Positions 5,989-24,629 of a DNA stretch of 28,614 nucleotides are shown one piece after another. The position numbers and the translations under genes are program-made. Under the pieces are notes generated by a model. The model was not told where the DNA came from, did not search any database, and saw only the letters and a list, made by a program, of their open reading frames with translations. The stretch lies in IMG/VR virus record IMGVR_UViG_3300035698_027260, positions 1-28,614 of that record. One strand, given 5' to 3'. The DNA comes from a virus. Each line of letters opens with the position of its first letter. The first letter of the stretch is position 1.

Positions 5989-6978
5989 TTAGTCCCGAAT
6001 GCCCTTACAAGATTTCAGTATACAGGCACTCATGTATTCCCAATGGGTGGTACTCCCACTAGTCACCAAACGAATGGACTTCGCTAAGCCTTGGATGAGA
6101 GGCACTAATTCAAAGGATTGCCAATAACAAAGAGACGGATAGAAGATCTTCTTGAAAAAATACTCATTTTTATCTGCAAGGAAAATAATCTCGGATTCGG
6201 TTTTACCCGCTTCCCTATAGGAAATGGTCTCTATCCAAGTCATGGCAAGACCCCCTATTACCGAGGCTACCGCCATTGTAGGGATGTCCTTAGCCTCTTG
6301 CCGTATTCGACGTAACAAAACGGAAACATGATGTGTGTCCTTTCGCAGTATGGAAGCTGCTAAAAGAGAGGTGTCCGTTAGGGTAAGCGGCGCCATTGCA
6401 CGTTTTACCTGGCTTGCAGTTATCTCCGTGGTCTTTTCTATGTCCGCTAAAGTACAAGCCTTCAACATCTCCATGGAAAGGAACCCTAACTCCGCCCCTA
6501 GACGCTCTACAATAGTTTGAGCAAGGGCTCCGGACAAAGTCTTGCCGTACCGCTTAGCCTCATGCACTACAAACTGTTGTGCGTATTCCTGCTTCTTATA
6601 CTCCTTATCCGGCAGGTTAAACTCTACTTTTACCCCTTTGGGCAACTTTGAGATGAACTTGTGTAGGGCGGAATTCTTCCGGAGCTTCTCCGTCACATTT
6701 AAAAGAAGGACCGTCTCTGCCTCTACAAGTTGTTTCTGATACTGCTCAAAAACAGTAACAGCCACCTTCTCCGGATTTTGCAAGATGATAAGGGTAGGGG
6801 TAGCCACTAGGAAACTGGAACCCACACTTAAAGTTATCTCTAAAGCATCGGAGTTTGCCCCGTTTACATATTCAACACGCCAACCTTTGGCCTCATTGTC
6901 CGTAATCATACTTCGAAGGGTCCGGCGGGTGGAGAATTTATCAGTCCCACTTAGGGCGTAAATAGTTGGTTTTCTCAT
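5989..6978 (-). CDS. DNA polymerase III delta subunit-like clamp loader protein
   Basis: 329 residues, close to bacterial HolA (about 340). The N-terminus KPTIYALSGTDKFSTRRTLRSMI matches the delta-subunit pattern of a P-loop-like strand with degenerate ATP site followed by a helix. FLVATPTLIILQNPEKV and TEKLRKNSALHKFI correspond to the conserved segments in delta that lead to the residues needed for partner contact. The start overlaps the stop of the delta-prime gene by four bases (ATGA), so the pair is translationally coupled; an earlier in-frame ATG would lie deep inside the partner gene and is rejected. It should bind and open a sliding clamp as part of a phage clamp loader. Together with delta-prime it implies bacterial-type replication machinery in this phage. 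Confidence 0.78.
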   Translation of the reverse strand: MRKPTIYALSGTDKFSTRRTLRSMITDNEAKGWRVEYVNGANSDALEITLSVGSSFLVATPTLIILQNPEKVAVTVFEQYQKQLVEAETVLLLNVTEKLRKNSALHKFISKLPKGVKVEFNLPDKEYKKQEYAQQFVVHEAKRYGKTLSGALAQTIVERLGAELGFLSMEMLKACTLADIEKTTEITASQVKRAMAPLTLTDTSLLAASILRKDTHHVSVLLRRIRQEAKDIPTMAVASVIGGLAMTWIETISYREAGKTESEIIFLADKNEYFFKKIFYPSLCYWQSFELVPLIQGLAKSIRLVTSGSTTHWEYMSACILKSCKGIRD

Positions 6979-7616
6979 GTGTCCAATAATAAGGAGGCTA
7001 CAACCTCCAAAGTTGTAGGTTGTTTGCTTTGCAAGGCCTCTCTGACTTGATCCCATAAACGACAAGCATCTAGGTCATCTAATCTAGTCGCTAAGGATTC
7101 CGCCACTAGGCGTAAAAACTCAAGCCCCTTTGCATCCTTCTTTCTTAAAATTTGGATGGCGGAGATTATAGCCGCATAATCCCGTTTTAAAGCTGCCTCC
7201 GTAGCAGACCACGCCGCTGCAAAAACCAGTTCGTCAGCATCGTCTAACGATACGACATCTCGCCCAGGTGCCCACCTTTCTAAACAGCGTGACCGTATAG
7301 TTCTAGGTACACCGCCTAAATCCAAAGCCCATAGGACTGGAATCACAAACCCTGAACCGCCATCTTCTATAGTTTTAAGTAAGGCATCCGAGGACTTACT
7401 AGAAGCTGTCCCATCAAGAGGACCTAACACCACGGCACTTCTACCATCCCCTAAAGGAACGGAGTTAATAAGGTTAACCGCTTCTCTAACTTGGTCTACA
7501 GCTAGACCCTTGGCATCATCCCCAATAGGAGGCACAAGAAGCCTTCCTATACGAATTGCCTCATCACAAGCTGCTGCCTTGGCACTCGGGCCATGGAATA
7601 AAAAACTAGAAGCCAT
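6975..7616 (-). CDS. DNA polymerase III delta-prime-like clamp loader subunit
   Basis: 213 residues, shorter than bacterial HolB (about 330), so probably lacking part of the C-terminal collar domain. FLFHGPSAKAAA is in the position of Walker A but lacks the GKT signature, as in non-hydrolysing delta-prime. The AAA+ core continues with AVVLGPLDGTASSKSSDALLKTIEDG, in the place of the strand-helix that reads L-KTLEEP in HolB, and VPRTIRSRCLERW matches the conserved SRC segment that supplies the arginine finger. The start has AAGGAGG seven bases upstream. It overlaps the delta-like gene by four bases. Weaker relatives such as gamma/tau-type subunits are less likely because the P-loop is dead. Confidence 0.75.
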   Translation of the reverse strand: MASSFLFHGPSAKAAACDEAIRIGRLLVPPIGDDAKGLAVDQVREAVNLINSVPLGDGRSAVVLGPLDGTASSKSSDALLKTIEDGGSGFVIPVLWALDLGGVPRTIRSRCLERWAPGRDVVSLDDADELVFAAAWSATEAALKRDYAAIISAIQILRKKDAKGLEFLRLVAESLATRLDDLDACRLWDQVREALQSKQPTTLEVVASLLLDT

Positions 7617-11739: not shown

Positions 11740-12960
11740 TTAGGGTCTATCCCAAGCCAACCATTCACTAACTGTAGTAGTATCATCGGAAGCGGATCTT
11801 CCGTGACTCCCTTTGTATTCCGTTTTAGCCTGTGAAAGTTTCTTCGGACGGAAACGTATGTCCCTTTCTACTGCGGGGATGCCATTTTTCTTAGCGTTCT
11901 TCATTTCCCGCAGGCTCATGTAACCAAGCTCAGCGCCGCCATGTCCTAAGTCCGCCCATCCAAAGAAAGTATCTTTCCCATCAAATTCTGTGATGAACCA
12001 AACAGCATCCGACCAGGGACAAAAGAATTTAACATAGACCATAGGGTCTTTCACTTCGTCCTGTGCATAGAGGGCTGGGATTTTCCTAGCTGTTCCCGCG
12101 GGTAAAAACTGGTAGTTACCCGCTTCTTTCTTCTCTTCCATGACTTCTAACTTGTCATAGTATTTAGGGTCTTCCGTGAGATGGTCCATAGCGATTTCCT
12201 GAGCTGTATCAGAATCATCAGTATGCTCCTTCTCTACTTTGGTTCCCTTAGCTAAAGACTTAGTATCAAAGTCGGCAGGTTTTTTACCCTCAGCTAGACC
12301 ACCGGGGATCTTGGAGGCAGCGGCTTTGAAGTTATCCTTATACTTCTCTTTCATGTCATTCCAGATTTTCTTGTCCTCTGGAGTCATGTTTTCAGTAGGG
12401 TCCGCGGGTACGCCTTCCTCAAAGCGGGCTTCTATCTCGTCGCCTTCCTCATCCTCGTCGGCCTCTTTAGGAGTGCCTTCATAGCGAGCCAGTAACAAGT
12501 CTGATGCTTGGGCCAAACGTAGTTTTTCCGTTAGACGAACGCGAGCAACAATAACGGGCTCCTCCGCATGCTGACAAGGGCAACCGGAATCTTCTTCTGG
12601 CCCTGTACCGTCGGGAATCCCTGGGGTGTTCCATCCGGCGCCTTTCTCTTGTGGTTTAGTAGCATCCCCTGGGAGCAAGGATTTAGTTTCCTCTTTAGCA
12701 CCACCACCTGAAAGACTTGTAACTTCCGTGTCGTCTTTAAGGTCAACATTCAGAATAGCTTCTAAGGAGCTGTCTTTAGGGCTTGCTTTTTTGAAGTTGT
12801 CCCTGTTCTTTTCATTCTCATCTACCCAGCGGTCAGCAGCTTCAGGATTGCCGTGGTCCCGTAGATACTCAGGGACATCAATACTAACGCCTTCCTCAAA
12901 CCTACTCTCGTGTTCTTTTTGCTGGGCCATCACTTGTAGTTTCTTTAGATAATCAGACAT
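11740..12960 (-). CDS. modular protein with DUF2958-like domain and internal repeats
   Basis: 406 residues from the ATG with GGAGG five bases upstream; that start overlaps the previous gene by 8 bases. Two related segments beginning RFEEGV (R20 and R179) each run about 40 residues and end in a DNFK motif, with W in the middle. Around 250-277 AQEIAMDHLTEDPKYYDKLEVME resembles a small DUF5661-type helical domain. Around 290-355 PALYAQDEVKDPMVYVKFF and FDGKDTFFGWADLG and ELGYMSLREM match the DUF2958 pattern (LY..D, VKFF, EFDG.DTFFG, ELGY.SL). Linkers are acidic and low in complexity. The function of DUF2958 is unknown. Modular layout and coupling to the peptidase gene suggest an accessory or virion-cargo protein. 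Confidence 0.65.
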   Translation of the reverse strand: MSDYLKKLQVMAQQKEHESRFEEGVSIDVPEYLRDHGNPEAADRWVDENEKNRDNFKKASPKDSSLEAILNVDLKDDTEVTSLSGGGAKEETKSLLPGDATKPQEKGAGWNTPGIPDGTGPEEDSGCPCQHAEEPVIVARVRLTEKLRLAQASDLLLARYEGTPKEADEDEEGDEIEARFEEGVPADPTENMTPEDKKIWNDMKEKYKDNFKAAASKIPGGLAEGKKPADFDTKSLAKGTKVEKEHTDDSDTAQEIAMDHLTEDPKYYDKLEVMEEKKEAGNYQFLPAGTARKIPALYAQDEVKDPMVYVKFFCPWSDAVWFITEFDGKDTFFGWADLGHGGAELGYMSLREMKNAKKNGIPAVERDIRFRPKKLSQAKTEYKGSHGRSASDDTTTVSEWLAWDRP

Positions 12961-15900
12961 TTTCTCCTCCTGAGAGATATCGTTGGGCAATTCGTTTAGC
13001 TTTATCACTAACTTGGGAGGCAACCATTTGACGGCCTTCCGTAGTGATTTCGGGCTGTACTACCATAGCAGGACGTCTTACTAAATAGTCCGGCCATTTT
13101 TCGTACCACTTACCATAGAATTCCGATTTAGGAACTATTCTAACTGTTTCATCCGGATCAGGCATATTTGGGTCAGCCACACTTACGGTGAGATCCTCAT
13201 CCACATCAAAGATTACGGATGCGTGGCTCCATGGACGGCCTTCCGGATTCCAAGCTATCATAACGGGGTAACCCTGGTCAGTATATTCTTTTACCTGCCG
13301 AAGAGTTGCCGGACAGATAAAAGTGATCCGTTGGCCATAATGCTGAGCTGCTGCGAAAGCACTCTCCCAGGAAGCTCCTTGCATAGGCATGGCGCCCATG
13401 ACCTTATTGACTAGCTCTGGGGTTGTTTCCTCCGGAGCTAGACCATTCGCCCTTAGGCACATGGACAAACTGGTTGTCATACAATTATACTGATTCTGCT
13501 GACGGACAGGGGTGACCCCAGCGGCAGCTTGTTTTAGTTTCATTTTTTCTCCTAAAGGATAGCCAGCCTTTGTGACGGCTTTATATAATTCATCTACGGC
13601 ACGTTTCCATTTCTTAGGCGACTTAGCTTTCCAAATTTTAAAATGAGAATTAGTTTCTAAATGCTTGGGCTCTTTTGACATGCCCGTAAAATCTCTAAAG
13701 GCTTCTTGGTGGTTCCTACTGGCGATGTTCCGTATTTTCCGAAGGAAGTTACGGATGGCACCCCCTAAATCCGTTTGGAATTCTGGCTCTTTAAGGGCGT
13801 GTTCCCCTTGACCATGCTGCCTATAAAAGTCTGTTCTGAGATAGCCACCAGGGTTGCGGTCAGGGTCACGCATATTGGAGGGCGGGAGCCCCGCCAAATC
13901 TTTTAGGCCCTTTAGTTCTTTAAGGAGTGTTTGACCTACATGCTGCATTTCATGTGTTAAGGTGGAATCTAATTCTGAAAGCACATCTTTGAAACTCTTT
14001 ACTGATTTGGGTGTTGCGTATATGTCCTTTACGTCTAACTGTTTTTTATTGGGGTCCCATTGTCCGGTGTCCCCGGAGTGCTCCTCGAAAGCCAGCACAC
14101 ATAGGATAGGGGACCAACCCTTTTCTTTAAGTACTTTTTCAGCCTTAATGTTACTTTTGGTATATTTCCAACCTTTCAGATTAAGTGGGAACTTCTTTTT
14201 TGCTGTACTAGAATATGTTCTTGCTTTCTGAGTGTGTTTTAAACATTCACGACGGAGAAGCTGTAATTCAACCATAGAAGTATCTTGGTTTTTATTGGTT
14301 TGGAGTAGTGTTTTGATTTTTTTAAGTATGGTTTTGCCTAGGCGGTTGCACACTTCTTGGGCATCATTAATATTTTGTGGGTATACAGTAGCACCCTTAA
14401 AATTAAGCTTTTGCTTCCCAGAAGCAACTAGAAAATTGTTCCCTACTCTGCGTACTCCGATAGTAAAGGCATCAAAACCAAAAGTAACCGTAATGCTACG
14501 GGTTTGTCTGTTTTTCATCTTATCCATTGTTCGGAGACCATGTAGGAAACCCTCGACTTGCAAGCGGGCTTCTAAAAGGCTTTGTGTTTCCCCAACTCTT
14601 ATGGCATACTTCCTGTTCACAAACACTAAGAGGTTACTTGCATAAATAGATCTCATCCAATTGCCTACTTCCGCAAGCATTGCTGGGGGTGCTTCGAACA
14701 AACCTGCTTGCTTTTTTTGGGCTTCCCAATAACTGGCTACAACATTTGCGGAGGATGTACTTTTTAGTTTCATGGGTCCTCCTAAAGAAAATCCCGCTTT
14801 CTTAGCTTCTTTGAAAAGCTCATTAACGGCTTTCTGCCATTTTTTAGGAGCCCTATTCCTCCAGATTTTGAAATGGCGGTTCAGGGCTAGATACTGTTCC
14901 TGTTTAATGAAAGTCGTTTCCGGAGAGAGCCCCGTAAAATTTCTAAACGCTTGCCCATGTGCTTTTCTAGGAACCTCTTTCATCTGCTGAAAGAACTCCC
15001 GCACAGCATTCCCTAAATCAGTTTGAAATTCAATATCTTGGAGTGTATGTTCCCCACGACCGTAGCTATAAGGTTTGTCTTTGCGATACCCATGTGGGTC
15101 CCTTTCTGGGTCTCGTATTTTTTTAGGGGGTAAACCAGTAGGCTCCTTAAGATCCTTTAGGACTTGCAGAAGGGTTTGACCTACATGGAGCATCTCATGT
15201 TCCACAGTGCCTAGGACTTGTGCCAAACCTAAATGGAAAGTTTCCAACCGTTGTGGTTGTGGCCTGAGCACATCAACCTCCAATTGTTTTTTGGATGCGT
15301 ACCATTGCCCACTACGGGCACGATGACCTTTGAAGTCCAAGAAACAATTGATAGAAGACCAACCCTTTTTTTTCAGCATCGCTTCAGGCTGATCCATGTC
15401 TTTTACATATTTCCAATCTTTCAGATCAATCGTGAATGTCTTTTTTGCTTTGCCAGTATAGTTCTTTGCTTTGGGGGTGTACTTGAGGCATTCCCTTTTA
15501 AGGCGTAGTAGCTCAACCCTGGTGTAAATTTCAGATTCCTTATCCCCATCCCCACGGATTTCTAAGCCCCGTAGCTCTAATTGGAAATCCATAATTTCTC
15601 TTTGAGCTTTCCAGCCTATCCAATTCTGAGCATCTTCTGCGCTATAAGGATATCGTTGGCGTTTGAACGTTAGTCGTTTTTTTCCCTGGTCCACTAAAAA
15701 ACGAGGGGCTTGGTCATCAGGGTACGCTACACGACGGATACCTAAGATTGAAGAGTGGTATAAGGTTTCTATCTTATGTGATCTGGTCTCACCAACTTTC
15801 ATTTTGGTGATGTCATAGTTAATAAAAGCCTCTAGCTCTTTAATATGGTCTTCTAATTGTTTTTTCAGCCCCACCATCCGTTGCAGGTACTTCTCTACAA

Positions 15901-16012
15901 AAACCAGCACATTCCCGGCATACACGGAGGACATCCAGTCTTTGACTTGCTTGGTCATCACAGGTGGAGCTTGGAGTGACCCTGCATCCTTCGTTTTATT
16001 TAGAGAGTTCAT
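12953..16012 (-). CDS. tandem metallopeptidase-like domains plus C39-like cysteine peptidase domain
   Basis: 1019 residues in three parts. Residues about 15-420 and 435-835 are two copies of one domain, each starting near APPxM...W-MxS-x-YA-x-N-LVFV, each with an HExxH zinc motif (HEMLH at 272-276, HEMQH at 687-691) and a later GEH...EFQTDLG that could supply the third ligand. Residues about 838-965 form a papain-like C39-type domain: QQNQYNCMTTSLSMCL with C844 as nucleophile, PWSHASVIFDVDED with H930, and a following D. The C-terminus ends KRIAQRYLSGG. No signal peptide or membrane helix is seen. Duplicated potential proteases fused to a third suggest a virion-packaged or host-modifying enzyme. 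Activity is inferred; the peptidase families beyond the motifs are not identified. Confidence 0.7.
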   Translation of the reverse strand: MNSLNKTKDAGSLQAPPVMTKQVKDWMSSVYAGNVLVFVEKYLQRMVGLKKQLEDHIKELEAFINYDITKMKVGETRSHKIETLYHSSILGIRRVAYPDDQAPRFLVDQGKKRLTFKRQRYPYSAEDAQNWIGWKAQREIMDFQLELRGLEIRGDGDKESEIYTRVELLRLKRECLKYTPKAKNYTGKAKKTFTIDLKDWKYVKDMDQPEAMLKKKGWSSINCFLDFKGHRARSGQWYASKKQLEVDVLRPQPQRLETFHLGLAQVLGTVEHEMLHVGQTLLQVLKDLKEPTGLPPKKIRDPERDPHGYRKDKPYSYGRGEHTLQDIEFQTDLGNAVREFFQQMKEVPRKAHGQAFRNFTGLSPETTFIKQEQYLALNRHFKIWRNRAPKKWQKAVNELFKEAKKAGFSLGGPMKLKSTSSANVVASYWEAQKKQAGLFEAPPAMLAEVGNWMRSIYASNLLVFVNRKYAIRVGETQSLLEARLQVEGFLHGLRTMDKMKNRQTRSITVTFGFDAFTIGVRRVGNNFLVASGKQKLNFKGATVYPQNINDAQEVCNRLGKTILKKIKTLLQTNKNQDTSMVELQLLRRECLKHTQKARTYSSTAKKKFPLNLKGWKYTKSNIKAEKVLKEKGWSPILCVLAFEEHSGDTGQWDPNKKQLDVKDIYATPKSVKSFKDVLSELDSTLTHEMQHVGQTLLKELKGLKDLAGLPPSNMRDPDRNPGGYLRTDFYRQHGQGEHALKEPEFQTDLGGAIRNFLRKIRNIASRNHQEAFRDFTGMSKEPKHLETNSHFKIWKAKSPKKWKRAVDELYKAVTKAGYPLGEKMKLKQAAAGVTPVRQQNQYNCMTTSLSMCLRANGLAPEETTPELVNKVMGAMPMQGASWESAFAAAQHYGQRITFICPATLRQVKEYTDQGYPVMIAWNPEGRPWSHASVIFDVDEDLTVSVADPNMPDPDETVRIVPKSEFYGKWYEKWPDYLVRRPAMVVQPEITTEGRQMVASQVSDKAKRIAQRYLSGGENV

Positions 16013-16342: not shown

Positions 16343-16828
16343 CTAACCCTGTTTGGCTACCATTTCCAGCATTTCTCGTGCGGACTCTGGTGACAACTTA
16401 GGTAGACAGGCTCCAATTTGGGTATCAACTTTGGCAGCGAGAGCCTTCGCTAACCATTGTTTTTCAGTGTCGTTGGCTTTTATATAGTTGCCAAGGTATT
16501 CGTCATCTTGTGCTATTTCCATAAGGGCTATTAGGAATGCTTCCCTTCGGACAGCTTCAGTTAGTAAGCCATGGGCAATATGCTGAAACCCACCACCGGG
16601 CCAGCTTGATATGGTTTTCTGATCCTCTGGAGAGGACACATCGTGGAAAGACCTTAGTTGTCCCCGCTCATTTACGGTGAGTGTTATGGTCAGTTTTGCT
16701 GAGGTTGTACCTTTAGCCATTTTCCCAGTTTCCATATTAGCAGCCCCGGAATCGCTCCGAGGAACGCTGCCCCCAGAACCGCCATGCTTAGTATTATTAC
16801 CGTTCCCATCTGTTCCATTTTTATTCAC
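16343..16828 (-). CDS. hypothetical protein with Gly/Asn/Ser-rich N-terminus
   Basis: 161 residues, unrecognised. It starts with GTG overlapping the chaperonin stop by 8 bases, with GGAGG six bases upstream inside the chaperonin gene. Residues 1-35 are flexible (NGTDGNGNNTKHGGSGG), then a short beta segment (AKLTITLTVNERGQLRSF) and a helical C-terminal half (LLTEAVRREAFLIALMEIAQDD; ESAREMLEMVAKQG). Tight coupling to a chaperonin might mean a cofactor, but it does not resemble GroES (no mobile-loop IVL and beta-barrel pattern), so I do not claim this. A near-match to the two-part promoter motif lies just upstream. Confidence 0.68.
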   Translation of the reverse strand: MNKNGTDGNGNNTKHGGSGGSVPRSDSGAANMETGKMAKGTTSAKLTITLTVNERGQLRSFHDVSSPEDQKTISSWPGGGFQHIAHGLLTEAVRREAFLIALMEIAQDDEYLGNYIKANDTEKQWLAKALAAKVDTQIGACLPKLSPESAREMLEMVAKQG

Positions 16829-18416
16829 CCCTCACCTCCTCTACTCTGCGGACCTGTGCGATGCTCGTATTAATTGATAAAAGTGTCGTTGCAACGGAAA
16901 CGGCTGCCTTCAGAGCTTCCCTTGTAACATTAGCCGGATCTATAATTGGGGGGTCCATCAGCAAGTCCCTGGTTGTATTCTCTAAAGCGTCCCATCCATA
17001 AGAAGTTCCTATGGTCTGGGCATCCTGAACCCTAGTCAGAATGTTAAAAGGATCATACCCAGCGTTAGACGCTAAGACCATAAGTGGCTTTGCTAAAGCC
17101 TGCTGTAATATAGTCCATCCTACTAAAAGACCCGCACCCATATCACTAGGGGCCTTTAGATCTGAGGAGATCCCTAATAAAGCGGCGCCCGCACCTGGTA
17201 GGACTCCACCTCGAAGAGAAGCTTTTACGGAAGCTAAGGCATCCTCAACACGGGCTCGTCTTTCTTTGAGGACGTTCTCGGTCTCTCCCCCTACCTTTAG
17301 TATTACTAGGCCCCCCGAAAGTGTGGCCATCCTTTCTTGTATGAGATCCTTGTCATAATCTGAGGGGGAATTCTCTGCTTCAGTTTTCAAGCCATCTAAA
17401 TAAGAACGGAGACCCATAATCTTATCCGGATAGGCCGTGAGTATCGTGGACTTCTGTTTGACGAATGCCGTACGTACTGACCCAAACCATTCGGAATCCC
17501 ATTTCTGTGGGTTTAGTCCGGAGACATTTTCTGCCAAGGTGGCCCCGGTAAGGGCTGCTATATCTTGAAGGGCATCCCTTTTACGGTGTCCAAAACTAGG
17601 ACAGAGGATAGGGATACTTTCCAGTACATCATTCTGAAGGTTCAAGAGTAAGGTGGCCCGAGCTTCATGGGTTACGCTTAAAGCGAATATGATGAGAGCC
17701 CTTGGTTTCCATTGAGAGGCACTTTCTAAAAGCTCTTTGACATCCTTTACGGAACTAAGATGCTCATTGATAACGGCTATCAGAGGACCGTCAAAGGTTG
17801 TTTCCTCCTTTATAAAGGAAGGGTAAGGGCCACGGTCAATCTCCATACCATCTTTGATCTCTAGTTTGACATCAGTACTCTGTCCATCCATAACAATGAT
17901 AGTGCCATCTCTACCTATAGCCATAGCAGCTTCACCCAGGGCCTCCGCCACTTCGGGATCTCCATTAGAAGCTAACCAAGCAACCCTCTCTATCTCTTCT
18001 TGATTTCGTAGAGGGTGACTCATTCCTGCTAATCTAGTATCGACCTCTAGGGCAGCTTCCCGGATACCTTTGCAAAGAAGTTGGGGCAATACTCCTGCCG
18101 CCAACTGTTGCATACCCAAGCGTAAAATCTCAGCGGCAAGGATTGTGGTAGTAGATGTACCATCCCCAACAGTGTCATTTACCCTAATACTGGCATCCCT
18201 AAGAATTCGTGCCCCCATATTTTCAACGGGGTCTACTAAAGCTACTTCTCTAGCAACAGTAACGCCGTCCCGTGTGGGTAGCAGTCCTGCAAATCGTTTT
18301 AGGATACAGATACCTCCACAAGGGCCATAAGTTACTGCAACAGCTTTCGCTAAGGTCATGGCACCTTTTAGGAGACGTCGCCTAGTTTTAAAGCCGTGTT
18401 GTACTTGCACGGGCAT
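16821..18416 (-). CDS. groL: GroEL-type (group I) chaperonin
   Basis: 531 residues, close to GroEL (about 545). Signature segments are in order: TYGPCGGICIL (nucleotide loop, normally TLGPKGRNVVL), TRDGVTVA with the catalytic Asp of the D52 position, NDTVGDGTSTTTILA with the D87-equivalent, apical-domain-like middle, GGLVILKVGGETENVLKERRARVEDAL with the D398-equivalent, GGVLPGAGAAL, and NAGYDP. The C-terminal GGM repeats of bacterial GroEL are absent. GGGAGG precedes the ATG. No GroES-like gene is visible in the window. Phage GroELs are known from a few large phages and are thought to fold phage proteins. Family certain; clients unknown. Confidence 0.93.
   Translation of the reverse strand: MPVQVQHGFKTRRRLLKGAMTLAKAVAVTYGPCGGICILKRFAGLLPTRDGVTVAREVALVDPVENMGARILRDASIRVNDTVGDGTSTTTILAAEILRLGMQQLAAGVLPQLLCKGIREAALEVDTRLAGMSHPLRNQEEIERVAWLASNGDPEVAEALGEAAMAIGRDGTIIVMDGQSTDVKLEIKDGMEIDRGPYPSFIKEETTFDGPLIAVINEHLSSVKDVKELLESASQWKPRALIIFALSVTHEARATLLLNLQNDVLESIPILCPSFGHRKRDALQDIAALTGATLAENVSGLNPQKWDSEWFGSVRTAFVKQKSTILTAYPDKIMGLRSYLDGLKTEAENSPSDYDKDLIQERMATLSGGLVILKVGGETENVLKERRARVEDALASVKASLRGGVLPGAGAALLGISSDLKAPSDMGAGLLVGWTILQQALAKPLMVLASNAGYDPFNILTRVQDAQTIGTSYGWDALENTTRDLLMDPPIIDPANVTREALKAAVSVATTLLSINTSIAQVRRVEEVRGE
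16841..16866 (-). promoter_or_regulatory. near-match to the two-part promoter motif inside the chaperonin 3' end
   Basis: On the minus strand GAGCATC, exactly 13 bases, then GAGTAG. It matches 6 of 7 bases in the first half and all in the second. However it lies in coding sequence and only about 13 bases before the GTG of the next gene, so any transcript would begin at or within the ribosome binding site. It may therefore be coincidence. Confidence 0.25.
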
Positions 18417-19396: not shown

Positions 19397-19479
19397 GCCG
19401 AGGTGATGGAATTGGTAGACATGCAAGCCTTAGAAGCTTGTGCCCTTTGGGCGTGTGGGTTCGACCCCCACCTTCGGCA
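19397..19479 (+). tRNA. tRNA-Leu (anticodon TAG)
   Basis: Class II cloverleaf: acceptor GCCGAGG pairs with CTTCGGC, anticodon stem CAAGC/GCTTG with loop CTTAGAA, long variable arm, T-arm with TTCGACC, discriminator A. Reads CUN codons, mainly CUA. CCA is not encoded in full (CCG follows). Confidence 0.93.
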
Positions 19480-19497
19480 CCGTTAGTTAAAGTTTTA

Positions 19498-19525
19498 GGA
19501 TCATCTCACAATGGTCTTGAGTAGT
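19498..19525 (+). promoter_or_regulatory. two-part promoter motif, copy 1
   Basis: GGATCATC (19498-19505), 13 bases, GAGTAGT (19519-19525). Lies 14 bases before tRNA-Ser(GCT). It is one of four near-identical copies in the island with exactly conserved spacing and unconserved spacer. Confidence 0.6.
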
Positions 19526-19539
19526 GTGGTTGATAATAT

Positions 19540-19631
19540 GGAAAGGTGGCCGAGCTTGGTTGATGGCGCTCGCCTGCTAAGTGAGTGTGCGGCTTAAACC
19601 CGTACCGGGGGTTCGAATCCCCCCCTTTCCG
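19540..19631 (+). tRNA. tRNA-Ser (anticodon GCT)
   Basis: Acceptor GGAAAGG/CCTTTCC, anticodon loop CTGCTAA, long serine-type variable arm (GTGTGCGGCTTAAACCCGTAC region), T-loop TTCGAAT, discriminator G as expected for serine. Reads AGU/AGC. No encoded CCA. Confidence 0.92.
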
Positions 19632-19644
19632 CTGTTAGTGTTAT

Positions 19645-19730
19645 GGAAGATTGGCAGAGTTGGTCGAATGCTGTGGGTTGCAACCCCACAGACCTTATGG
19701 TCCACACAGGTTCGAATCCTGTATCTTCCT
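19645..19730 (+). tRNA. tRNA-Cys (anticodon GCA) with unusual long variable arm
   Basis: Acceptor GGAAGAT/ATCTTCC, D stem GGCA/TGCT, anticodon stem GTGGG/CCCAC with loop TTGCAAC, T stem ACAGG/CCTGT. Discriminator is T, the cysteine identity base. Between the anticodon and T stems lie 16 bases in which GACC pairs with GGTC, making a class II variable arm. Ordinary bacterial tRNA-Cys has a four- or five-base variable loop. Confidence 0.85.
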
Positions 19731-19746
19731 CTTTGAAAGTTTGTTT

Positions 19747-19834
19747 GGAAGGATGGCAGAGTTTGGTTATCGCACCGGTCTTGAAAACCGGAGGCCCTTC
19801 ACGGGGTCCGGGGGTTCGAATCCCTCTCCTTCCG
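19747..19834 (+). tRNA. tRNA-Ser (anticodon TGA)
   Basis: Acceptor GGAAGGA/TCCTTCC, anticodon stem CCGGT/ACCGG with loop CTTGAAA, long variable arm CCC...GGG, discriminator G. Reads UCA and other UCN codons. No encoded CCA. Confidence 0.93.
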
Positions 19835-19838
19835 CTTT

Positions 19839-19920
19839 GTGGATGTGGTGAAATGGTAGACACGCCGGTCTGAGGGACCGGTCCCGTTTAGGGGTGTGGG
19901 TTCAAGTCCCATCTTCCACA
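19839..19920 (+). tRNA. tRNA-Leu (anticodon GAG)
   Basis: Acceptor GTGGATG with CTTCCAC (one T-T mismatch at position 6-67), anticodon stem CCGGT/ACCGG with loop CTGAGGG, long variable arm, T-loop TTCAAGT, discriminator A. Reads CUU/CUC. Confidence 0.9.
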
Positions 19921-19924
19921 CTTT

Positions 19925-20018
19925 GGAGAGGTTGCCTAGTCAGGATTAAGGTACCTGCTTGGAAAGCAGGCGTAGTTGTCAAAGACTGCCGGGGGTTCAA
20001 ATCCCTCCCTCTCCGCCA
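19925..20018 (+). tRNA. tRNA-Ser (anticodon GGA), CCA encoded
   Basis: Acceptor GGAGAGG/CCTCTCC, anticodon stem CCTGC/GCAGG with loop TTGGAAA, long variable arm with GTAGT/ACTGC-type pairing, discriminator G followed by CCA at 20016-20018. Reads UCU/UCC. It lies 24 bases before the Pth2 start. Confidence 0.92.
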
Positions 20019-20042
20019 AATGAAATTTCTAGAGGGGTTCAC

Positions 20043-20405
20043 ATGAGCGAGTACAAACAAATGATTGTGTTACGCAAAGACTTAGGGATGCGTAAAGGTA
20101 AAATGGTTGCCCAGGGTGCTCACGCTTCCCTAGCAGCTATCTTGGATGGGGCCTCGATACTTTCAGACGACCGCATACGTAAATGGCTTGCTGGCCCTTT
20201 TACCAAGGTTTGTGTGGGCGTGGGTAGTGAAGAGGAACTGCTTGAGTTGCATAAGAAAGCAAAGGAAGCAGGAATGATAACATCATTAATACAGGATGCA
20301 GGGGTTACGGAGTTTGGCGGCGTACCTACATATACCGCCATTGCTATTGGGCCGGATATGCGGGAGAAATTACAACCGTTGACGGGGCATCTGAAATTAC
20401 TTTAG
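20043..20405 (+). CDS. peptidyl-tRNA hydrolase, Pth2 (archaeal/eukaryotic-type) family
   Basis: 120 residues, the typical Pth2 length. It should cleave the ester bond of peptidyl-tRNA that has dropped off ribosomes, freeing tRNA. Conserved segments: QMIVLRKDLGMRKGKMVAQGAHASLAA (the K-x-G-K-x-x-AQ-x-x-HA signature), a helix with EEELLELHKKAKEAGM, and IQDAGVTEFGGVPTYTAIAIGP (the DAG-x-T...T-x2-x-IGP signature). The start follows AGAGGGG by five bases; a longer frame reaching into the tRNA upstream is rejected. Bacteria normally use the unrelated Pth1, so a Pth2 set inside a phage tRNA array is notable and probably protects the phage's own tRNA pool. Confidence 0.92.
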   Translation: MSEYKQMIVLRKDLGMRKGKMVAQGAHASLAAILDGASILSDDRIRKWLAGPFTKVCVGVGSEEELLELHKKAKEAGMITSLIQDAGVTEFGGVPTYTAIAIGPDMREKLQPLTGHLKLL

Positions 20406-20412
20406 ATTTTTA

Positions 20413-20440
20413 GGATCATCAGGGCGACCTTTTGAGTAGT
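20413..20440 (+). promoter_or_regulatory. two-part promoter motif, copy 2
   Basis: GGATCATC (20413-20420), 13 bases, GAGTAGT (20434-20440). Begins 8 bases after the Pth2 stop and is followed by a boxA-like GCTCTTTGAAA at 20463 and then tRNA-Trp. Confidence 0.6.
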
Positions 20441-20480
20441 GTTTATGTGCTATGGAGGTTCAGCTCTTTGAAATGTAGGT

Positions 20481-20530
20481 TGGTTATCAGGAAGGTGGGT
20501 GTCATGAACCTGTATCTTTTCTGATAACCA
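20481..20530 (+). other. hairpin before tRNA-Trp
   Basis: TGGTTATCAG (20481-20490) pairs perfectly with CTGATAACCA (20521-20530). The 30-base loop contains a further AGGT/ACCT pair. It ends 11 bases before tRNA-Trp; possibly a processing signal or small RNA. No T-run follows, so it is not a classic terminator. Confidence 0.5.
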
Positions 20531-20541
20531 GCCCGTTTTAT

Positions 20542-20618
20542 GGGTGAGTAGTTCTAATTGGTAGAACGCGGGATTCCAAATCCCGATGCTGGGGGTTCGA
20601 GTCCCTCCTCACCCGCCA
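20542..20618 (+). tRNA. tRNA-Trp (anticodon CCA), CCA encoded
   Basis: Acceptor GGGTGAG/CTCACCC, anticodon stem CGGGA/TCCCG with loop TTCCAAA, T-loop TTCGAGT, discriminator G and encoded CCA. Reads UGG. Confidence 0.92.
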
Positions 20619-20619
20619 T

Positions 20620-20753
20620 GGGGAAGTAGCCAAATTGGTTTAGGCAACAGTCGGTAAAACTGTCAAGTTAACCGCTTTTCATCTCGGCTCCTTTACAGGA
20701 ACCACTCCGAAAAGCATACAAGCATTATGGAGGTTCGAATCCTTCCTTCCCCA
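20620..20753 (+). tRNA. atypical tRNA-Tyr-like gene (anticodon GTA, G33, giant variable region)
   Basis: Acceptor GGGGAAG/CTTCCCC, D stem GCC/GGC, anticodon stem ACAGT/ACTGT with loop CGGTAAA, T stem GGAGG/CCTTC with TTCGAAT, discriminator A. The anticodon reads GTA but position 33 is G rather than the near-universal T. The variable region is about 64 bases (normally 13-20 in tRNA-Tyr) with GCTTTTC pairing with GAAAAGC. A normal tRNA-Tyr lies 230 bases on. It could be an intron-like insertion, a decaying gene or an RNA with another role. Confidence 0.6.
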
Positions 20754-20772
20754 CTTTTTCTTTTTCTTTTTC

Positions 20773-20849
20773 GCTTGGGTAGCTCAGTTGGTAGTAGCAC
20801 CGGTTTGAAGTACCGGGTGTCGGCAGTTCAATTCTGCCCCCAAGCACCA
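20773..20849 (+). tRNA. tRNA-Phe (anticodon GAA), CCA encoded
   Basis: Acceptor GCTTGGG/CCCAAGC, D stem GCTC region, anticodon stem CCGGT/ACCGG with loop TTGAAGT, T-loop TTCAATT, discriminator A, CCA at 20847-20849. Reads UUU/UUC. Confidence 0.92.
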
Positions 20850-20850
20850 T

Positions 20851-20936
20851 GGGTAGGCTGCGGAGATTGGTGGACCGCACCAGACTGTAAATCTGGCTCC
20901 TTCGGGACGTTGAAGGTTCGAATCCTTCCTTACCCA
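20851..20936 (+). tRNA. tRNA-Tyr (anticodon GTA)
   Basis: Acceptor GGGTAGG/CTTACCC, anticodon stem CCAGA/TCTGG with canonical loop CTGTAAA, class II variable arm of normal length, T-loop TTCGAAT, discriminator A. This is the conventional tyrosine tRNA of the array. Confidence 0.93.
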
Positions 20937-20944
20937 CTTTAGTT

Positions 20945-20972
20945 GGATCATCCTTGGTACTCTTTGAGTAGT
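20945..20972 (+). promoter_or_regulatory. two-part promoter motif, copy 3
   Basis: GGATCATC (20945-20952), 13 bases, GAGTAGT (20966-20972), extended by ATAGATG. It is followed by a boxA-like GTTCTTTGG (20987), a CACA..CAAG/CTTG..TGTG hairpin and tRNA-Leu(TAA). A lone GAGTAGT near 21054 lacks the first half. Confidence 0.6.
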
Positions 20973-21103
20973 ATAGATGTGAGATGGTTCTTTGGTAGAA
21001 AGTTTTCCCACACGGCAAGTCAAGGGCTCGATGCGAACGGGGCTTGTTGTGAGATGAGTAGTAGGTTCCGTTTTGGGGTCCCTTACTTACTATTCAGTAA
21101 TAC

Positions 21104-21187
21104 GCCTGGGTGGTGGAGTTGGTAGACACAAGGGACTTAAAATCCCTCGGGCTTACGCCCTTGCGGGTTCGACTCCCGCCCTAGGCA
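21104..21187 (+). tRNA. tRNA-Leu (anticodon TAA)
   Basis: Acceptor GCCTGGG/CCTAGGC, anticodon stem AGGGA/TCCCT with loop CTTAAAA, variable arm GGGC..GCCC, T-loop TTCGACT, discriminator A. Reads UUA (and UUG). Confidence 0.93.
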
Positions 21188-21208
21188 CTTTTAATATAGG
21201 AGACGGTT

Positions 21209-21370
21209 ATGGGTAATCAAGTAAAGGAAGCCCCCTTAGAGGGGAAAGTAGTAATGCCTGATGATGCCCCACGATGCACCTCTTTTGCTCAAAAGCGAAG
21301 GGATGATAGGCTACGGGGGATGCTAAAAGATCCTGTAGTAATCCTAGAGGGCACAAAAACCGATAGGTAA
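21209..21370 (+). CDS. small hypothetical protein between tRNAs
   Basis: 53 residues, starting MGNQVKEAPLEGK and ending ILEGTKTDR. The ribosome binding site TAGGAGA is at good distance from the ATG and the frame is closed by TAA. The sequence is charged, with a basic middle (QKRRDDRLRG) and no motif I recognise. The 176 bases after it (to the next tRNA) contain no convincing gene. It is too short for automatic gene calls but looks real from its start signal. Confidence 0.55.
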   Translation: MGNQVKEAPLEGKVVMPDDAPRCTSFAQKRRDDRLRGMLKDPVVILEGTKTDR

Positions 21371-21546
21371 ACAGCTTGGGGTGCTAAACCTTTTAGCTTA
21401 CAGTAACCGGAGTGATTTCCGGGGAGGCCTGTCCATACCATGGGCCTTATAAAATTGTATGGATTGAAGAAGAAGCTACTTCTTCCTGTACGCCTCTAGT
21501 AAGGGGCCAAGAGAGGGACGGTCTAATCATCCGAGCCTCTTATTTA

Positions 21547-21630
21547 GCCGGGGTGGCGGAATTGGTAGACGCGCTGGATTCAAAATCCAGTGAGGGTAAC
21601 CTCGTGTGGGTTCGATTCCCACCCTCGGCA
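21547..21630 (+). tRNA. tRNA-Leu (anticodon CAA)
   Basis: Acceptor GCCGGGG with CCTCGGC (one wobble), anticodon stem CTGGA/TCCAG with loop TTCAAAA, variable arm, T-loop TTCGATT, discriminator A. Reads UUG. The array now holds four leucine isoacceptors. Confidence 0.92.
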
Positions 21631-21686
21631 CTATCATTTTAGTATGGCGACCTTGTAGGCGTCTGGTTAAAATGTAGCGAGGCTCT

Positions 21687-21714
21687 GGATCATCCGTAAA
21701 TCTTTTAGAGTAGT
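21687..21714 (+). promoter_or_regulatory. two-part promoter motif, copy 4
   Basis: GGATCATC (21687-21694), 13 bases, GAGTAGT (21708-21714), extended by ATGGATG. The transcript would contain the boxA-like element at 21751, the structured RNA region and the tmRNA. Confidence 0.6.
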
Positions 21715-21779
21715 ATGGATGTAATTATTGTCTTATAAGGCAGCAGGTTTGATCTTTGAACTTTTGACAGGGGTAACTA

Positions 21780-21960
21780 ACAGGACCTAGTAGGGACCGT
21801 AGGTTTTCAACAGTAAAGTCCGATAAGGCAGTCACTTTTGAAAACCAGGTGTTGGTCCGGGGGCTGGCTCGGCTTCCGTCTAGTAGAGCGGTAAATTGGT
21901 GGAGGGTGCAAACCCTATGAATCCATGAGCATCCGTGCGAAATAGACCAAAGTTTGTTAA
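21780..21960 (+). ncRNA. candidate structured RNA upstream of the tmRNA
   Basis: GGTTTTCAA (21802-21810) pairs perfectly with TTGAAAACC (21838-21846); outside it GGACC (21794-21798) can pair with GGTCC (21854-21858). Downstream AGGGT-GCAA-ACCCT (21903-21916) is a five-pair hairpin with a GNRA tetraloop. There is no open frame of note. The family is not recognised: it is not a tRNA, and the conserved parts of RNase P RNA are not evident. The limits given are approximate. Confidence 0.4.
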
Positions 21961-22009
21961 TTACTCCTGTGAGAAGTTCAGAGTGCTATTGAAAGTTCTT
22001 TGATTATTT

Positions 22010-22364
22010 GGGGGCGAATTGGTTTCGACTGGGATGATGTAAGTCCAAGTCGCGTGTCGGGGATGTTCTGAACCTCGTTAAAAAATGGAACAAACTTTAA
22101 TTGCTAACACTATGCAATTGGCTGCGTAAAACGCAACCCGGAAAACCTGGAAAGGCTATGACTAGGATTTTCCGTCATTTATTTGGCCTGCTGCCTGAAG
22201 CCCGTACTCACGGGGCCGATGGAAACAAGATAAACGGGGGATGTTCATTAAGCATTTCTGGCAAAGGTGCTACTTAATGAACGAGAAAAAAACACTTCTG
22301 CCTACACACGTAGACGCTTGTGACAAACCTTTCTAGGACCGGAGTTCGATACTCCGCGCCTCCA
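22010..22364 (+). ncRNA. ssrA: transfer-messenger RNA (tmRNA)
   Basis: Rescues stalled ribosomes by acting as tRNA-Ala and then as a short mRNA. The 5' end GGGGGCGAATTGGTTTCGACTGGG-type tmRNA start (read at 22010-22033) and the 3' CGCCTCC form the tRNA-like acceptor with the usual G-U at the third pair; the T-arm is CGGAGTTCGATACTCCG, discriminator A, CCA not encoded. The tag frame reads MEQTLIANTMQLAA then TAA at about 22134; the exact resume codon cannot be fixed by eye, but the LAA end is the classic protease signal. TTCATTAAG/CTTAATGAA (about 22244-22281) is one of the pseudoknot-region stems. Length 355 is typical. Confidence 0.92.
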
Positions 22365-22388
22365 CAACGATTTTCCGAGCGCCTCCAC
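22356..22388 (+). repeat. direct repeat of the tmRNA 3' end
   Basis: GCGCCTCCAC at 22356-22365 (tmRNA acceptor strand) is repeated exactly at 22379-22388, just before the endonuclease gene. The second copy also forms the left arm of the hairpin that covers the endonuclease ribosome binding site. Confidence 0.7.
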
Positions 22389-22419
22389 TATTTTGACTAT
22401 AGTTCAGGATTAGTGGAGG
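22382..22419 (+). promoter_or_regulatory. hairpin sequestering the HNH gene's ribosome binding site
   Basis: CCTCCACTA (22382-22390) pairs perfectly with TAGTGGAGG (22411-22419), and the GGAGG there is the ribosome binding site for the ATG at 22427. Folding would hide it on transcripts read from upstream, as known for phage homing endonuclease genes. Confidence 0.6.
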
Positions 22420-22426
22420 TATCGGA

Positions 22427-22993
22427 ATGAAAAAGATAACCATCACTTGTGCTGGATGTAATAAGCCTTTTGAAAAGCGTAAAGCAGAATGGGCTAGACA
22501 GCTCCGTAAGGACCCTGACCGTAAATTTTATTGTACGATGTCTTGTTACGGTCAAGTAGGGCAGTACAACCTTGGTGACAAGAGGGGGAAATGCGACCCA
22601 GAAAACTTGTTGCGTGGACGGAAGCTAGATGAGTTTTCGCCTTTCCGGTACTTTATGAACAGGGCAAGGAATAAAAATAGGGGGAAGGGCTATGATGTAG
22701 ACCTGCCTTATTTGAAAGACCTTTGGGAGGGGCAAAAGGGCCTTTGTGCTCTTTCCGGGATGTCAATGGTATTATCGGAGAATACCGCTGCTTTTGAAAA
22801 GGTTGTCCGAAACCCTTGGAGAGCAAGCTTGGATAGGGTAGATTCCTCCCTTGGCTATGTGAAAGGGAATGTCCAGTTCGTGGTCTTGATGGCTAATATC
22901 TGTAAAGGTCTTTATACGGATGAGGAGGTCGTTCAATTTTGTAAAGCCGTTGTGTCTAACAACATTGAAAAGGGGTCATATGGATCACCATAA
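22427..22993 (+). CDS. HNH-type endonuclease (probable homing endonuclease)
   Basis: 188 residues. The N-terminus has a zinc-finger-like CAGCNKPFEKRKAEW...FYCTMSC (CX2C...CX3C). The C-terminal half carries CALSGM, then ASLDRVDSSLGYVKGNVQFVVLMANICKG, the pattern SLDRIDxxxGYxxGNVQxVxxxxNxxK of phage HNH-like endonucleases. It should cut DNA and may spread itself or neighbouring sequence. GGAGG (in a hairpin) precedes the ATG. It lies only 62 bases after the tmRNA, next to a repeat of its 3' end, consistent with arrival by insertion. The second HNH histidine pair is not clear by eye, so catalytic competence is inferred. Confidence 0.8.
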   Translation: MKKITITCAGCNKPFEKRKAEWARQLRKDPDRKFYCTMSCYGQVGQYNLGDKRGKCDPENLLRGRKLDEFSPFRYFMNRARNKNRGKGYDVDLPYLKDLWEGQKGLCALSGMSMVLSENTAAFEKVVRNPWRASLDRVDSSLGYVKGNVQFVVLMANICKGLYTDEEVVQFCKAVVSNNIEKGSYGSP

Positions 22994-23105
22994 AACACCT
23001 AAGCTAAAAGTACCGCCCATTAGAATCATCAATGATACTAATGGGTGCTTGACCACCATCCTTGCCTTCGTATGTGTTGTTGGCTTGGTCTTTTGGATTA
23101 TTTAA
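22980..23105 (+). CDS. small membrane protein with C-terminal transmembrane helix
   Basis: 41 residues: a short polar N-terminus (MDHHKTPKLKVPPIRIINDTNG) and then about 20 hydrophobic residues (from LTTILAF to VFWII) ending at the C-terminus, so a single tail-anchored helix is expected. The start overlaps the HNH stop by 14 bases and has AAGGGG seven bases upstream. A longer frame starting at 22920 exists, but the ribosome binding site favours this ATG. Function unknown. Confidence 0.6.
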   Translation: MDHHKTPKLKVPPIRIINDTNGCLTTILAFVCVVGLVFWII

Positions 23106-23146
23106 CAAGGGGTAGGCAACTATCCCATTAACCTAGGTTTGCTGTT

Positions 23147-23290
23147 ATGCTTACAAGAAACTTAGACACTGAGGCTAACAGAGCTTATTGGTCCGGGATT
23201 GACCAGGTGGTTAAAACAGTAAGTGAGTGGCCCTCTTGGAAAAAGCAGTATTGCCAAAGTAGCTCAGTTGGTAGAGCAACTGATTCGTAA
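23147..23290 (+). CDS. small protein whose stop codon lies inside tRNA-Thr
   Basis: 47 residues. The pattern AYWSGIDQVVKTVSEWPSWKK (W at the start of a helix and WPxWK at its end) looks like the small helical proteins common in large phages, which is why I accept it although its ribosome binding site (CTAGG) is weak. The last 12 codons are read from the tRNA-Thr(CGT) gene and the TAA is in its anticodon loop, so the C-terminus is determined by tRNA sequence. A different start cannot be excluded. Confidence 0.45.
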   Translation: MLTRNLDTEANRAYWSGIDQVVKTVSEWPSWKKQYCQSSSVGRATDS

Positions 23291-23325
23291 CCAGTAGGTC
23301 AGGAGTTCGATTCTCCTCTTTGGCT
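23253..23325 (+). tRNA. tRNA-Thr (anticodon CGT)
   Basis: Acceptor GCCAAAG/CTTTGGC, D stem GCTC/GAGC, anticodon stem ACTGA with CCAGT (last pair A-C) and loop TTCGTAA, T-loop TTCGATT, discriminator T. Reads ACG. Overlaps the end of a small coding frame. Confidence 0.9.
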
Positions 23326-23335
23326 CTTATTTTAT

Positions 23336-23409
23336 GTCCCCGTCTTCCAGCCTGGTTAGGATACCGGCCTTTCAAGCCGATGACACGGGTTCAAATCCCG
23401 TCGGGGATA
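23336..23409 (+). tRNA. tRNA-Glu (anticodon TTC), first copy
   Basis: Acceptor GTCCCCG with CGGGGAT (first pair G-T), anticodon stem core CGGC/GCCG with loop CTTTCAA, T-loop TTCAAAT, discriminator A. Reads GAA/GAG. Begins like the common bacterial tRNA-Glu. Confidence 0.9.
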
Positions 23410-23413
23410 CTTT

Positions 23414-23486
23414 GCCTCTGTAGCTCAATAGGAAGAGCACTCGACTTGTAATCGAGATGTTGCGGGTTCGATTCCTGCCAGAGGCT
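23414..23486 (+). tRNA. tRNA-Thr (anticodon TGT)
   Basis: Acceptor GCCTCTG/CAGAGGC, D stem GCTC/GAGC, anticodon stem CTCGA/TCGAG with loop CTTGTAA, T-loop TTCGATT, discriminator T. Reads ACA and other ACN codons. Confidence 0.93.
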
Positions 23487-23494
23487 CTTTTGCT

Positions 23495-23567
23495 GCCCAG
23501 GTAGCTCAGTGGTAGAGCACCTCCATGGTAAGGAGGGGGTTCGTGGGTTCGATCCCCACCCTGGGCT
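23495..23567 (+). tRNA. tRNA-Thr (anticodon GGT)
   Basis: Acceptor GCCCAGG/CCTGGGC, D stem GCTC/GAGC, anticodon stem CCTCC/GGAGG with loop ATGGTAA, T-loop TTCGATC, discriminator T. Reads ACU/ACC. Completes the threonine set. Confidence 0.93.
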
Positions 23568-23579
23568 CTGGTTTCTTAT

Positions 23580-23653
23580 GGCCCCGTAGGCTAGCGGTCT
23601 AAGCCATCGCCCTTTCAAGGCGGTGATCGCCGGTTCAAATCCGGTCGGGGCTA
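23580..23653 (+). tRNA. tRNA-Glu (anticodon TTC), second copy
   Basis: Acceptor GGCCCCG/CGGGGCT, anticodon stem TCGCC/GGCGG with loop CTTTCAA, T-loop TTCAAAT, discriminator A. It has the same anticodon as the copy 170 bases upstream but clearly different D and T arms, so it is not a recent duplicate. Confidence 0.9.
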
Positions 23654-23685
23654 CTTTTTGATCCTCCTTAGTATAGAGGGTAGCT

Positions 23686-24009
23686 ATGGGTGTGTTTTTA
23701 GAGGGACTAAAAAAGATGTTCGCTGGGGTCCCCCCGGATATAAGGGAACACAACTACACCCAAGATTGTTGGGGCCACAAAGTTACGCTGACCTCGCATT
23801 CCGAGAAGTATGAAAGATTCAACATGTCCGGCTGGGGTTATAGCGTCAAAGTTGGTGACATCATAATACTAACAACTAAAAAGGGAACCACCCCCATTGA
23901 AAAAGACATCGGAAAAATCGCAAGATACAAAGTAATTCGCGTGAAATACTATAATGACCCTTCTGATATGTTTGAAGGCAGGGTGGAGCTGATTAAAGAA
24001 ATACGCTGA
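23686..24009 (+). CDS. hypothetical protein
   Basis: 107 residues, unrecognised. The pattern DCWGHKVTLTSHSEKYERFNMSGWGYSVKVGDIIILTTKKGT followed by ARYKVIRVKYYNDPSDMFEGRVELI (quoted in parts) suggests a small beta-barrel of SH3 or PUA-like type, with the typical VGDIIIL turn seen in domains that bind RNA or protein. GAGG lies six bases before the ATG. It directly follows the tRNA-Glu gene, so it is probably cotranscribed with tRNAs. Confidence 0.65.
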   Translation: MGVFLEGLKKMFAGVPPDIREHNYTQDCWGHKVTLTSHSEKYERFNMSGWGYSVKVGDIIILTTKKGTTPIEKDIGKIARYKVIRVKYYNDPSDMFEGRVELIKEIR

Positions 24010-24023
24010 TTTTGGAGGTTGAT

Positions 24024-24552: not shown

Positions 24553-24629
24553 CCGAGTGGCTTATGGTACCTGTTTCGAAAGCAGACGGTCCTTCACGGG
24601 GCTCGGGGGTTCGAATCCCCCTCCTTCCT
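24543..24629 (+). tRNA. tRNA-Ser (anticodon CGA)
   Basis: Acceptor GGAAGGA/TCCTTCC, anticodon stem core CTGT/GCAG with loop TTCGAAA, long variable arm CCC..GGG, T-loop TTCGAAT. Discriminator is T rather than the usual serine G, unlike the other three serine tRNAs. Reads UCG. Its first 10 bases overlap the end of the nucleotidyltransferase-like gene. Confidence 0.9.

Follow-up and report, generated by a model that had tools for sequence, protein, structure and literature searches.

Organization of the fusion gene

The window, i.e. the whole 28,614-nucleotide stretch of viral DNA that was analysed, carries on its minus strand a gene for a protein in which two copies of an HExxH-containing domain precede a C39-like domain. 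The features of this gene, in window coordinates, are:

12953..16012 (-): fusion ORF, 1019 aa, HExxH copy 1, HExxH copy 2 and C39-like domain; no internal stop
14747..15991 (-): HExxH domain copy 1, residues 8-422; blastp against copy 2
13517..14713 (-): HExxH domain copy 2, residues 434-832; blastp and AlphaFold2
15185..15199 (-): HEMLH, residues 272-276, putative zinc ligands H272 and H276, putative catalytic E273; alignment and residue check
15029..15031 (-): E328 of copy 1, putative third zinc ligand; Glu in 19/19 rows and residue check
13940..13954 (-): HEMQH, residues 687-691; alignment and residue check
13781..13783 (-): E744 of copy 2, putative third zinc ligand; alignment and residue check
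14720..14746 (-): NVVASYWEA, residues 423-431, copy 1/copy 2 joint; read from the sequence
13166..13516 (-): C39-like peptidase domain, residues 833-949; PF13529, E 4.5e-9
13481..13483 (-): C844, putative nucleophile; Cys in the window and in 8/8 C39 relatives read
13223..13225 (-): H930, putative catalytic His; within a WSHAS shared by the window and 8/8 relatives read
13172..13174 (-): D947 of DPN, putative third triad member; DPN in the window and in 8/8 relatives read
12974..12994 (-): C-terminal tag RIAQRYL, residues 1007-1013, RVAxR[FYW]L type; terminal pattern count

The domain layout proposed in the initial annotation holds. The two copies of one domain, described as of about 400 residues each, span residues 8-422 and 434-832 and are identical in 174 of 422 aligned columns (41%, blastp, E 1e-105); the HExxH motifs lie exactly at 272-276 and 687-691, as HEMLH and HEMQH; the later EFQTDLG is present in each copy, headed by E328 and E744; and Cys844 and His930 are exactly placed in a C-terminal domain that scores 37.5 bits against PF13529 (Peptidase_C39_2; curated cut-off 24, E 4.5e-9). 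On this sequence evidence, the chain consists of two protease-like zinc domains joined to a cysteine-protease-like domain. The annotation's three protease-like domains in one chain stand as regards their conserved active-site residues, from which their activity is predicted.

In the C39-like domain, Q838/Q841, C844, H930 and D947 are kept in all eight C39 relatives read, and this Gln/Cys/His/Asp set presumably has the active-site roles of its counterparts in the C39 family. Compared with Peptidase_C39_2, whose cut-off it exceeds and whose Q, C, H and D it conserves, the window domain lacks ABC transporter parts and is fused to zinc domains, and its C39 relatives, unlike Peptidase_C39_2, carry phage-specific linkers and a tag. 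An 'SGG' near the C terminus was considered as a C39 double-glycine site and rejected: the GGAGGAG there, in the last codons of the fusion gene, resembles a site for ribosome binding to the next, overlapping gene, and GG is rare in the other tags. Elsewhere, an ORF directly before an intact C39 gene (L006:4067-5005) repeats the C39 start up to the catalytic Cys and continues into unrelated repeats, a pattern that suggests a mobile element inserted at the active-site codon. On the 301-kb contig L049, a 133-aa protein that is C39-like by eye (L049:5741-6142) is encoded about 2 kb upstream of an HExxH gene.

Predicted active site and structure of the zinc domain

The two His and the Glu of HExxH, the Gln three residues on and a downstream Glu are identical in 19/19 aligned rows of the zinc domain, some pairs of which are only near 20-25% identical; the rows are a chosen sample, and most of the 31 and 43 tblastn records described below lie outside this motif count. 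When the fusion protein was shuffled with composition kept (20,000 trials), at least one HExxH arose in 3.2% and at least two in 0.05% of cases; the motif goes beyond chance because these five residues are the same in 19/19 members. The equivalent of E328/E744 is Glu in every row, 37-59 residues after the first His, and from the alignment Glu328/Glu744, the E of EFQTDLG, is likely to be the third zinc ligand. The D of TDLG is not conserved across the zinc-domain alignment.

Duplicates were removed before counting (L045, the same as L044; L007 and L010, as L006; L009, as L008; L048, as the contig of L002), and the start of the first L046 ORF was set at an internal MNLSH (residue 95). Partial HMM matches in G010, G011 and G003 and a weak second RAS14 match (E 0.009) were kept outside the tree; 121Q_51, which is without the domain, is outside the 19 rows.

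Structures were predicted with AlphaFold2 for HExxH copy 2 and for its core (pLDDT 83.7 and 82.6, respectively). The initial annotation had named HExxH residues placed apart as evidence against its proposal; in both models they lie on one long helix (residues 236-266 for copy 2 and 73-103 for the core, model numbering), as far as helix positions go, and in both the conserved Glu opens a later helix (307-325 for copy 2). The best PDB fold match of the core model by VIA, for which, according to the tool's note, Z under 8 may reflect a mere common arrangement, is weak (the HExxH domain of ChlB, Z 5.2, 5.0 Å over 153 residues), as are those to the lethal factor catalytic domain (Z 4.4), IrrE (3.8) and ACE (3.4), with unrelated helical structures ranking between the HExxH enzymes. 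Foldseek matches to the PDB are likewise weak (E 0.23 or worse), and the top viral match is a 'structural protein' of Serratia phage BF (probability 1.00, E 1.9e-3), the 528-residue length of which is that of BF_0319.

Since the recognisable matches of the core model are mostly HExxH enzymes, the modelled zinc domain is likely to have a gluzincin-like site. The model resembles gluzincin-like peptidases, e.g. the lethal factor catalytic domain and IrrE/PprI, in its HExxH helix and in the Glu on a later helix, but differs from them in having no Pfam or PDB sequence match and Z values of only 3.5-4.4. That the top VIA match is to an alpha-ketoglutarate oxygenase, ChlB, favours a different explanation, in which the HExxH domain would be a metal-dependent enzyme of another kind than a peptidase (e.g. 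a 2-oxoglutarate oxygenase of the ChlB kind), or else a non-catalytic virion scaffold. However, at this level of Z only a common arrangement may be meant, the HExxH peptidases listed above lie within 1-2 Z units of ChlB, and the general-base Glu of HExxH is kept in 19/19 rows, which argues against a mere scaffold; we consider this explanation rather improbable. Judged by its conserved residues, the domain is probably an active zinc peptidase.

Relatives of the zinc domain

The window zinc domain matches no Pfam family above cut-off, of zinc peptidases or otherwise, and no PDB sequence; the SprT and ArdC families are absent from its Pfam matches at E<=1, and the window protein matches 0 PHROG families at E<=0.01. 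Among 84,980 genomes of bacteria and archaea that were scanned, 35 pattern matches arose, none of which was confirmed as a relative. Viral scans yielded a single-copy relative in the 536-kb contig L002 and then relatives in L044/L045, L046, L047, L049, L050 and L051, with two adjacent genes of the family in each of L046 and L047.

An HMM built from 11 metagenomic rows of the zinc domain (A7) finds, beyond its own rows, a match in Stenotrophomonas phage RAS14 (E 2e-16) and a pair of neighbouring genes in phage BF (1.1e-6 and 5.8e-5), together with partial matches: further copies in G010 and G011, and one C-terminal match in G003. RAS14 is directly linked to CBB_322 (E 4e-7), and by tblastn BF_0319 and BF_0320 lead to 31 and 43 phage records, respectively. 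In a profile-profile comparison, A7 matches the jumbo-phage set at 98.1% (E 8e-14), and the alignment pairs the HExxH motifs and the later Glu of the two groups. By these profile comparisons, the window zinc domain is homologous to the HExxH family of the RaK2-like jumbo phages. A 263-aa homologue of BF_0320, 121Q_51 (gp51, L076:4072-4863), keeps both ends but has no HExxH; therefore the domain is dispensable somewhere.

The RaK2-like proteins CBB_321/CBB_322, BF_0319/BF_0320 and 121Q gp50 have the same HExxH...E domain as the window protein, also in tandem. By contrast with the fused window chain, they are encoded by separate adjacent genes, have long C-terminal parts of their own and lack a C39 fusion; the GenBank, RefSeq and PHROG labels seen for them mention no protease.

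Neighbourhood and origin of the fusion

The genes around the fusion gene are:

11740..13023 (-): downstream gene with DUF2958 and DUF5661; likely ATG overlaps the fusion-gene stop
16821..18416 (-): GroEL-like gene, upstream of the fusion gene; phrog_5725, E 1.5e-100; PF00118; same order in L002
18645..19019 (-): 124-aa protein with N-terminal tag TRLAMRYL; relationships by eye

The downstream gene has an orthologue after the C39 gene in L002 (L002:10254-12434), and an RFEEG..ADPT..M(S/T)PE motif recurs in the two. By eye, the 124-aa protein is related to a gene that stands separately, and tagged, in L002, and to the C-terminal end of the C39 proteins in L005 and L011. Elsewhere in the window, a cluster of 17 tRNA genes and a tmRNA (tag ANTMQLAA) is interspersed with small ORFs (19397-24630, +), and two adjacent ORFs (5989-7616, -) resemble clamp-loader subunits by eye.

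The order in L002 is tagged 204-aa protein, 70-aa protein, HExxH, GroEL, 146-aa protein, 85-aa protein, C39 and repeat protein. In the window the neighbours are the same, but its HExxH slot before GroEL is empty and a doubled HExxH domain is fused ahead of C39. Since the zinc domain and C39 are separate genes at one locus in L002, the window shows duplication plus fusion. In the tree, the two window copies are sisters (support 100/99), apart from the L046, L047 and RaK2-like pairs, and tandem doubling of the zinc domain, as judged from this tree, therefore probably occurred more than once. Single-gene relatives have an RVAxRYL-type tag at the place matching the copy 1/copy 2 joint, and NVVASYWEA (423-431) is, by eye and without a statistic, a possible remnant of such a tag at the N terminus of copy 2.

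Probable virion association and candidate targeting signals

The BF_0319/0320, CBB_321/322 and 121Q gp50 proteins are annotated as structural, and the jumbo-phage rows match phrog_22033 (6/6) and phrog_18596 (5/6), both labelled 'virion structural protein'. CBB_322 was detected by MS in purified virions, 30 unique peptides giving 43.57% coverage, and CBB_320, encoded next to it, was represented by 4 peptides (PMC5259590); the adjacent HExxH paralogue CBB_321 is unnamed in the CBB text and virion MS table, so far as accessible (PMC5259590). Similarly, the XacN1 homologue ORF117 was not seen among the virion proteins in the accessible XacN1 text. The 'structural' labels are not independent, because, in the accessible part of an Erwinia study, structural genes were predicted by similarity to earlier MS work (PMC7760394).

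The T4 targeting consensus is (L/I)xE. In 9/9 jumbo-type relatives (RAS14, XacN1, SCTP-2, CBB_321, CBB_322, BF_0319, BF_0320, 121Q_50 and L051), the zinc domain starts with P or PP closely after an LxE-A/S/G site; that of XacN1, missed by the mechanical count, was taken from the annotated start. The RAS14 protein, for example, begins MTQSFKQFLIEA. The base rate of LxE[AGS] within the first 20 residues is 2/99 mechanical ORFs in one BF stretch, and both RAS14 (E 1.1e-23) and BF (1e-20) encode a gp21-type protease. In T4, the internal proteins and Alt have an N-terminal targeting propeptide that is removed by gp21, and enter the host (PMC7411985).

The window protein, which begins MNSLNKTKDAGSLQAPP, has no LxE targeting propeptide and no clear tag at its N terminus. 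In place of the T4-type LxE site of the RaK2-like proteins, the window's huge-phage group has an RVAxR[FYW]L tag, which in L046 and L047 (two genes each) and in L050 is N-terminal and immediately precedes the same PP start, and which in L002 and the window is C-terminal; the L049 HExxH gene is without it, and L044 has only MPRVAG. At protein ends, RVAxR[FYW]L gives 9 matches among 727 ORFs of G001 (0.2 expected) and 5 among 102 of G003 (0.0 expected), a looser RVA pattern gives 9 matches in 7/118 ORFs of G009 (0.18 expected), and RVA-type tags occur in 3/43 ORFs of G013 (0.02 expected), 3/38 of the window (0.1) and 0/139 of G014; these counts were made on mechanical ORFs split at 20-kb borders, and part of the excess is circular, since these same contigs supplied the pattern. 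In G014, an N-terminal MKLYxILFE-like tag is present in 11/139 ORFs (0.2 expected by shuffling), clustered around the HExxH gene. A roughly ten-gene island there, on both strands, has this type of N terminus, and most of its proteins are without a Pfam match (L054:7033-19319, G014 47-60 kb).

A zinc-domain relative, CBB_322, occurs in jumbo-phage virions, and therefore the fusion protein is probably head cargo. Association with the virion, or the injection with the DNA that the initial annotation suggested, gains indirect support from the homology to CBB_322, a protein detected in virions by MS, and from the PHROG labels, the capsid-targeting-like N termini and the shared terminal tag.

The composition of the tagged set could also fit a protease that is not packaged but acts within the cell on host factors or defence proteins, the tags then serving another localisation or a complex. 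The tag is found on proteins that look like enzymes (GNAT/AAT, topoisomerase IB, tRNA nucleotidyltransferase), and no clear case of a known virion protein came up among those scanned, one of which has weak tail-fibre matches. The virion MS of CBB_322 with the PHROG labels, and the LxE sites in 9/9 jumbo relatives, speak against this, and we regard it as very unlikely; packaging in the phage head appears quite probable.

Among the tagged enzymes, very long topoisomerase IB proteins with internal RVAxRYL-type tags are encoded at L060:14528-18931 and L043:405-7178, the tag lying directly before the topoisomerase domain in one of them. A 770-aa neighbour in L044, tried as a terminase, was assigned by HMMs to an interrupted tRNA nucleotidyltransferase; the insertion (L044:4088-6400) is apparently intein-like, by eye.

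Proposed role

The reading that we prefer, with a probability of about 0.5, is that the fusion protein is a head-packaged, probably ejected multi-protease steered by a shared terminal tag. On this reading, the two zinc peptidase domains, of the HExxH...E (gluzincin-like) type, stem from a lineage-specific duplication and are joined to a cysteine peptidase that is C39-like and has a papain fold. The C-terminal RIAQRYL tag would steer the chain into the prohead, in the manner of the T4 capsid-targeting sequence on internal proteins; the protein would stay in the mature head and most likely be ejected with the DNA, after which its peptidases would cut host proteins. The proposed logic (short tag, packaging, ejection) is like that of T4 IPI-III and Alt, the likeness proposed being one of logic: the T4 internal proteins have an N-terminal targeting sequence, whereas the window protein has no T4-type sequence and its tag is C-terminal.

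Alternatively, the zinc and C39 domains may cut head or scaffold proteins inside the prohead and not be meant for the host. HMM searches of the RVA-type contigs, with RAS14 and BF as the positive controls for gp21 and gp23, gave no gp21, gp23 or S78 family match, which in such fragments does not prove absence; a maturation role would fit the missing gp21 or S78 protease, the position of the tags at protein ends and domain joints, as expected of cleavage sites, and the adjoining GroEL-like gene. A role of this sort has been put forward, in the accessible part of the paper by Iyer et al., for a different zincin found in group 1 jumbo phages (PMC7824862). However, phages RAS14 and BF have a gp21-type protease in addition to the HExxH family, 121Q_51 is without the HExxH domain, and lineage-specific copies and fusions fit variable cargo better than an essential maturase. 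We therefore think maturation unlikely as the protein's role; given packaging and an active peptidase, action in the host is somewhat favoured over action in maturation.

A broader and more tentative proposal, which we hold to be possible but rather doubtful, is that cargo selection in the window's group of huge phages follows a second capsid-targeting code with no sequence relation to that of T4, in which RVAxR[FYW]L at cargo ends and at fused-domain joints would load an enzyme arsenal for delivery, some of it as chains cut at the tags. If so, the arsenal would comprise the twin zinc peptidases, the C39 peptidase, an acetyltransferase, a topoisomerase and a tRNA nucleotidyltransferase.

Head-packaged, capsid-targeted phage cargo is a known kind; within the literature searched, the enzyme family and the architecture are new. 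SprT-like and ArdC-like jumbo-phage zincins are, from the accessible part of the report describing them, also zincin-like, variable in copy number and with proposed host targets (PMC7824862), but the window domain has no SprT or ArdC match of the kind noted above. In the literature searched, which comprised few subscription texts and no supplements, there is no description of these virion proteins as metallopeptidases, nor of the RVA tag. Through the present analysis, a family of cultured jumbo phages that bears the label 'virion structural protein' becomes a candidate zinc peptidase of the phage head, its predicted active site now defined. The RVA tag is a candidate for the signal that sorts proteins for delivery into cells in uncultured huge phages, and such a signal would let other delivered enzymes be predicted from sequence. 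If ejected, the window protein would be a testable new type of phage-delivered enzyme.
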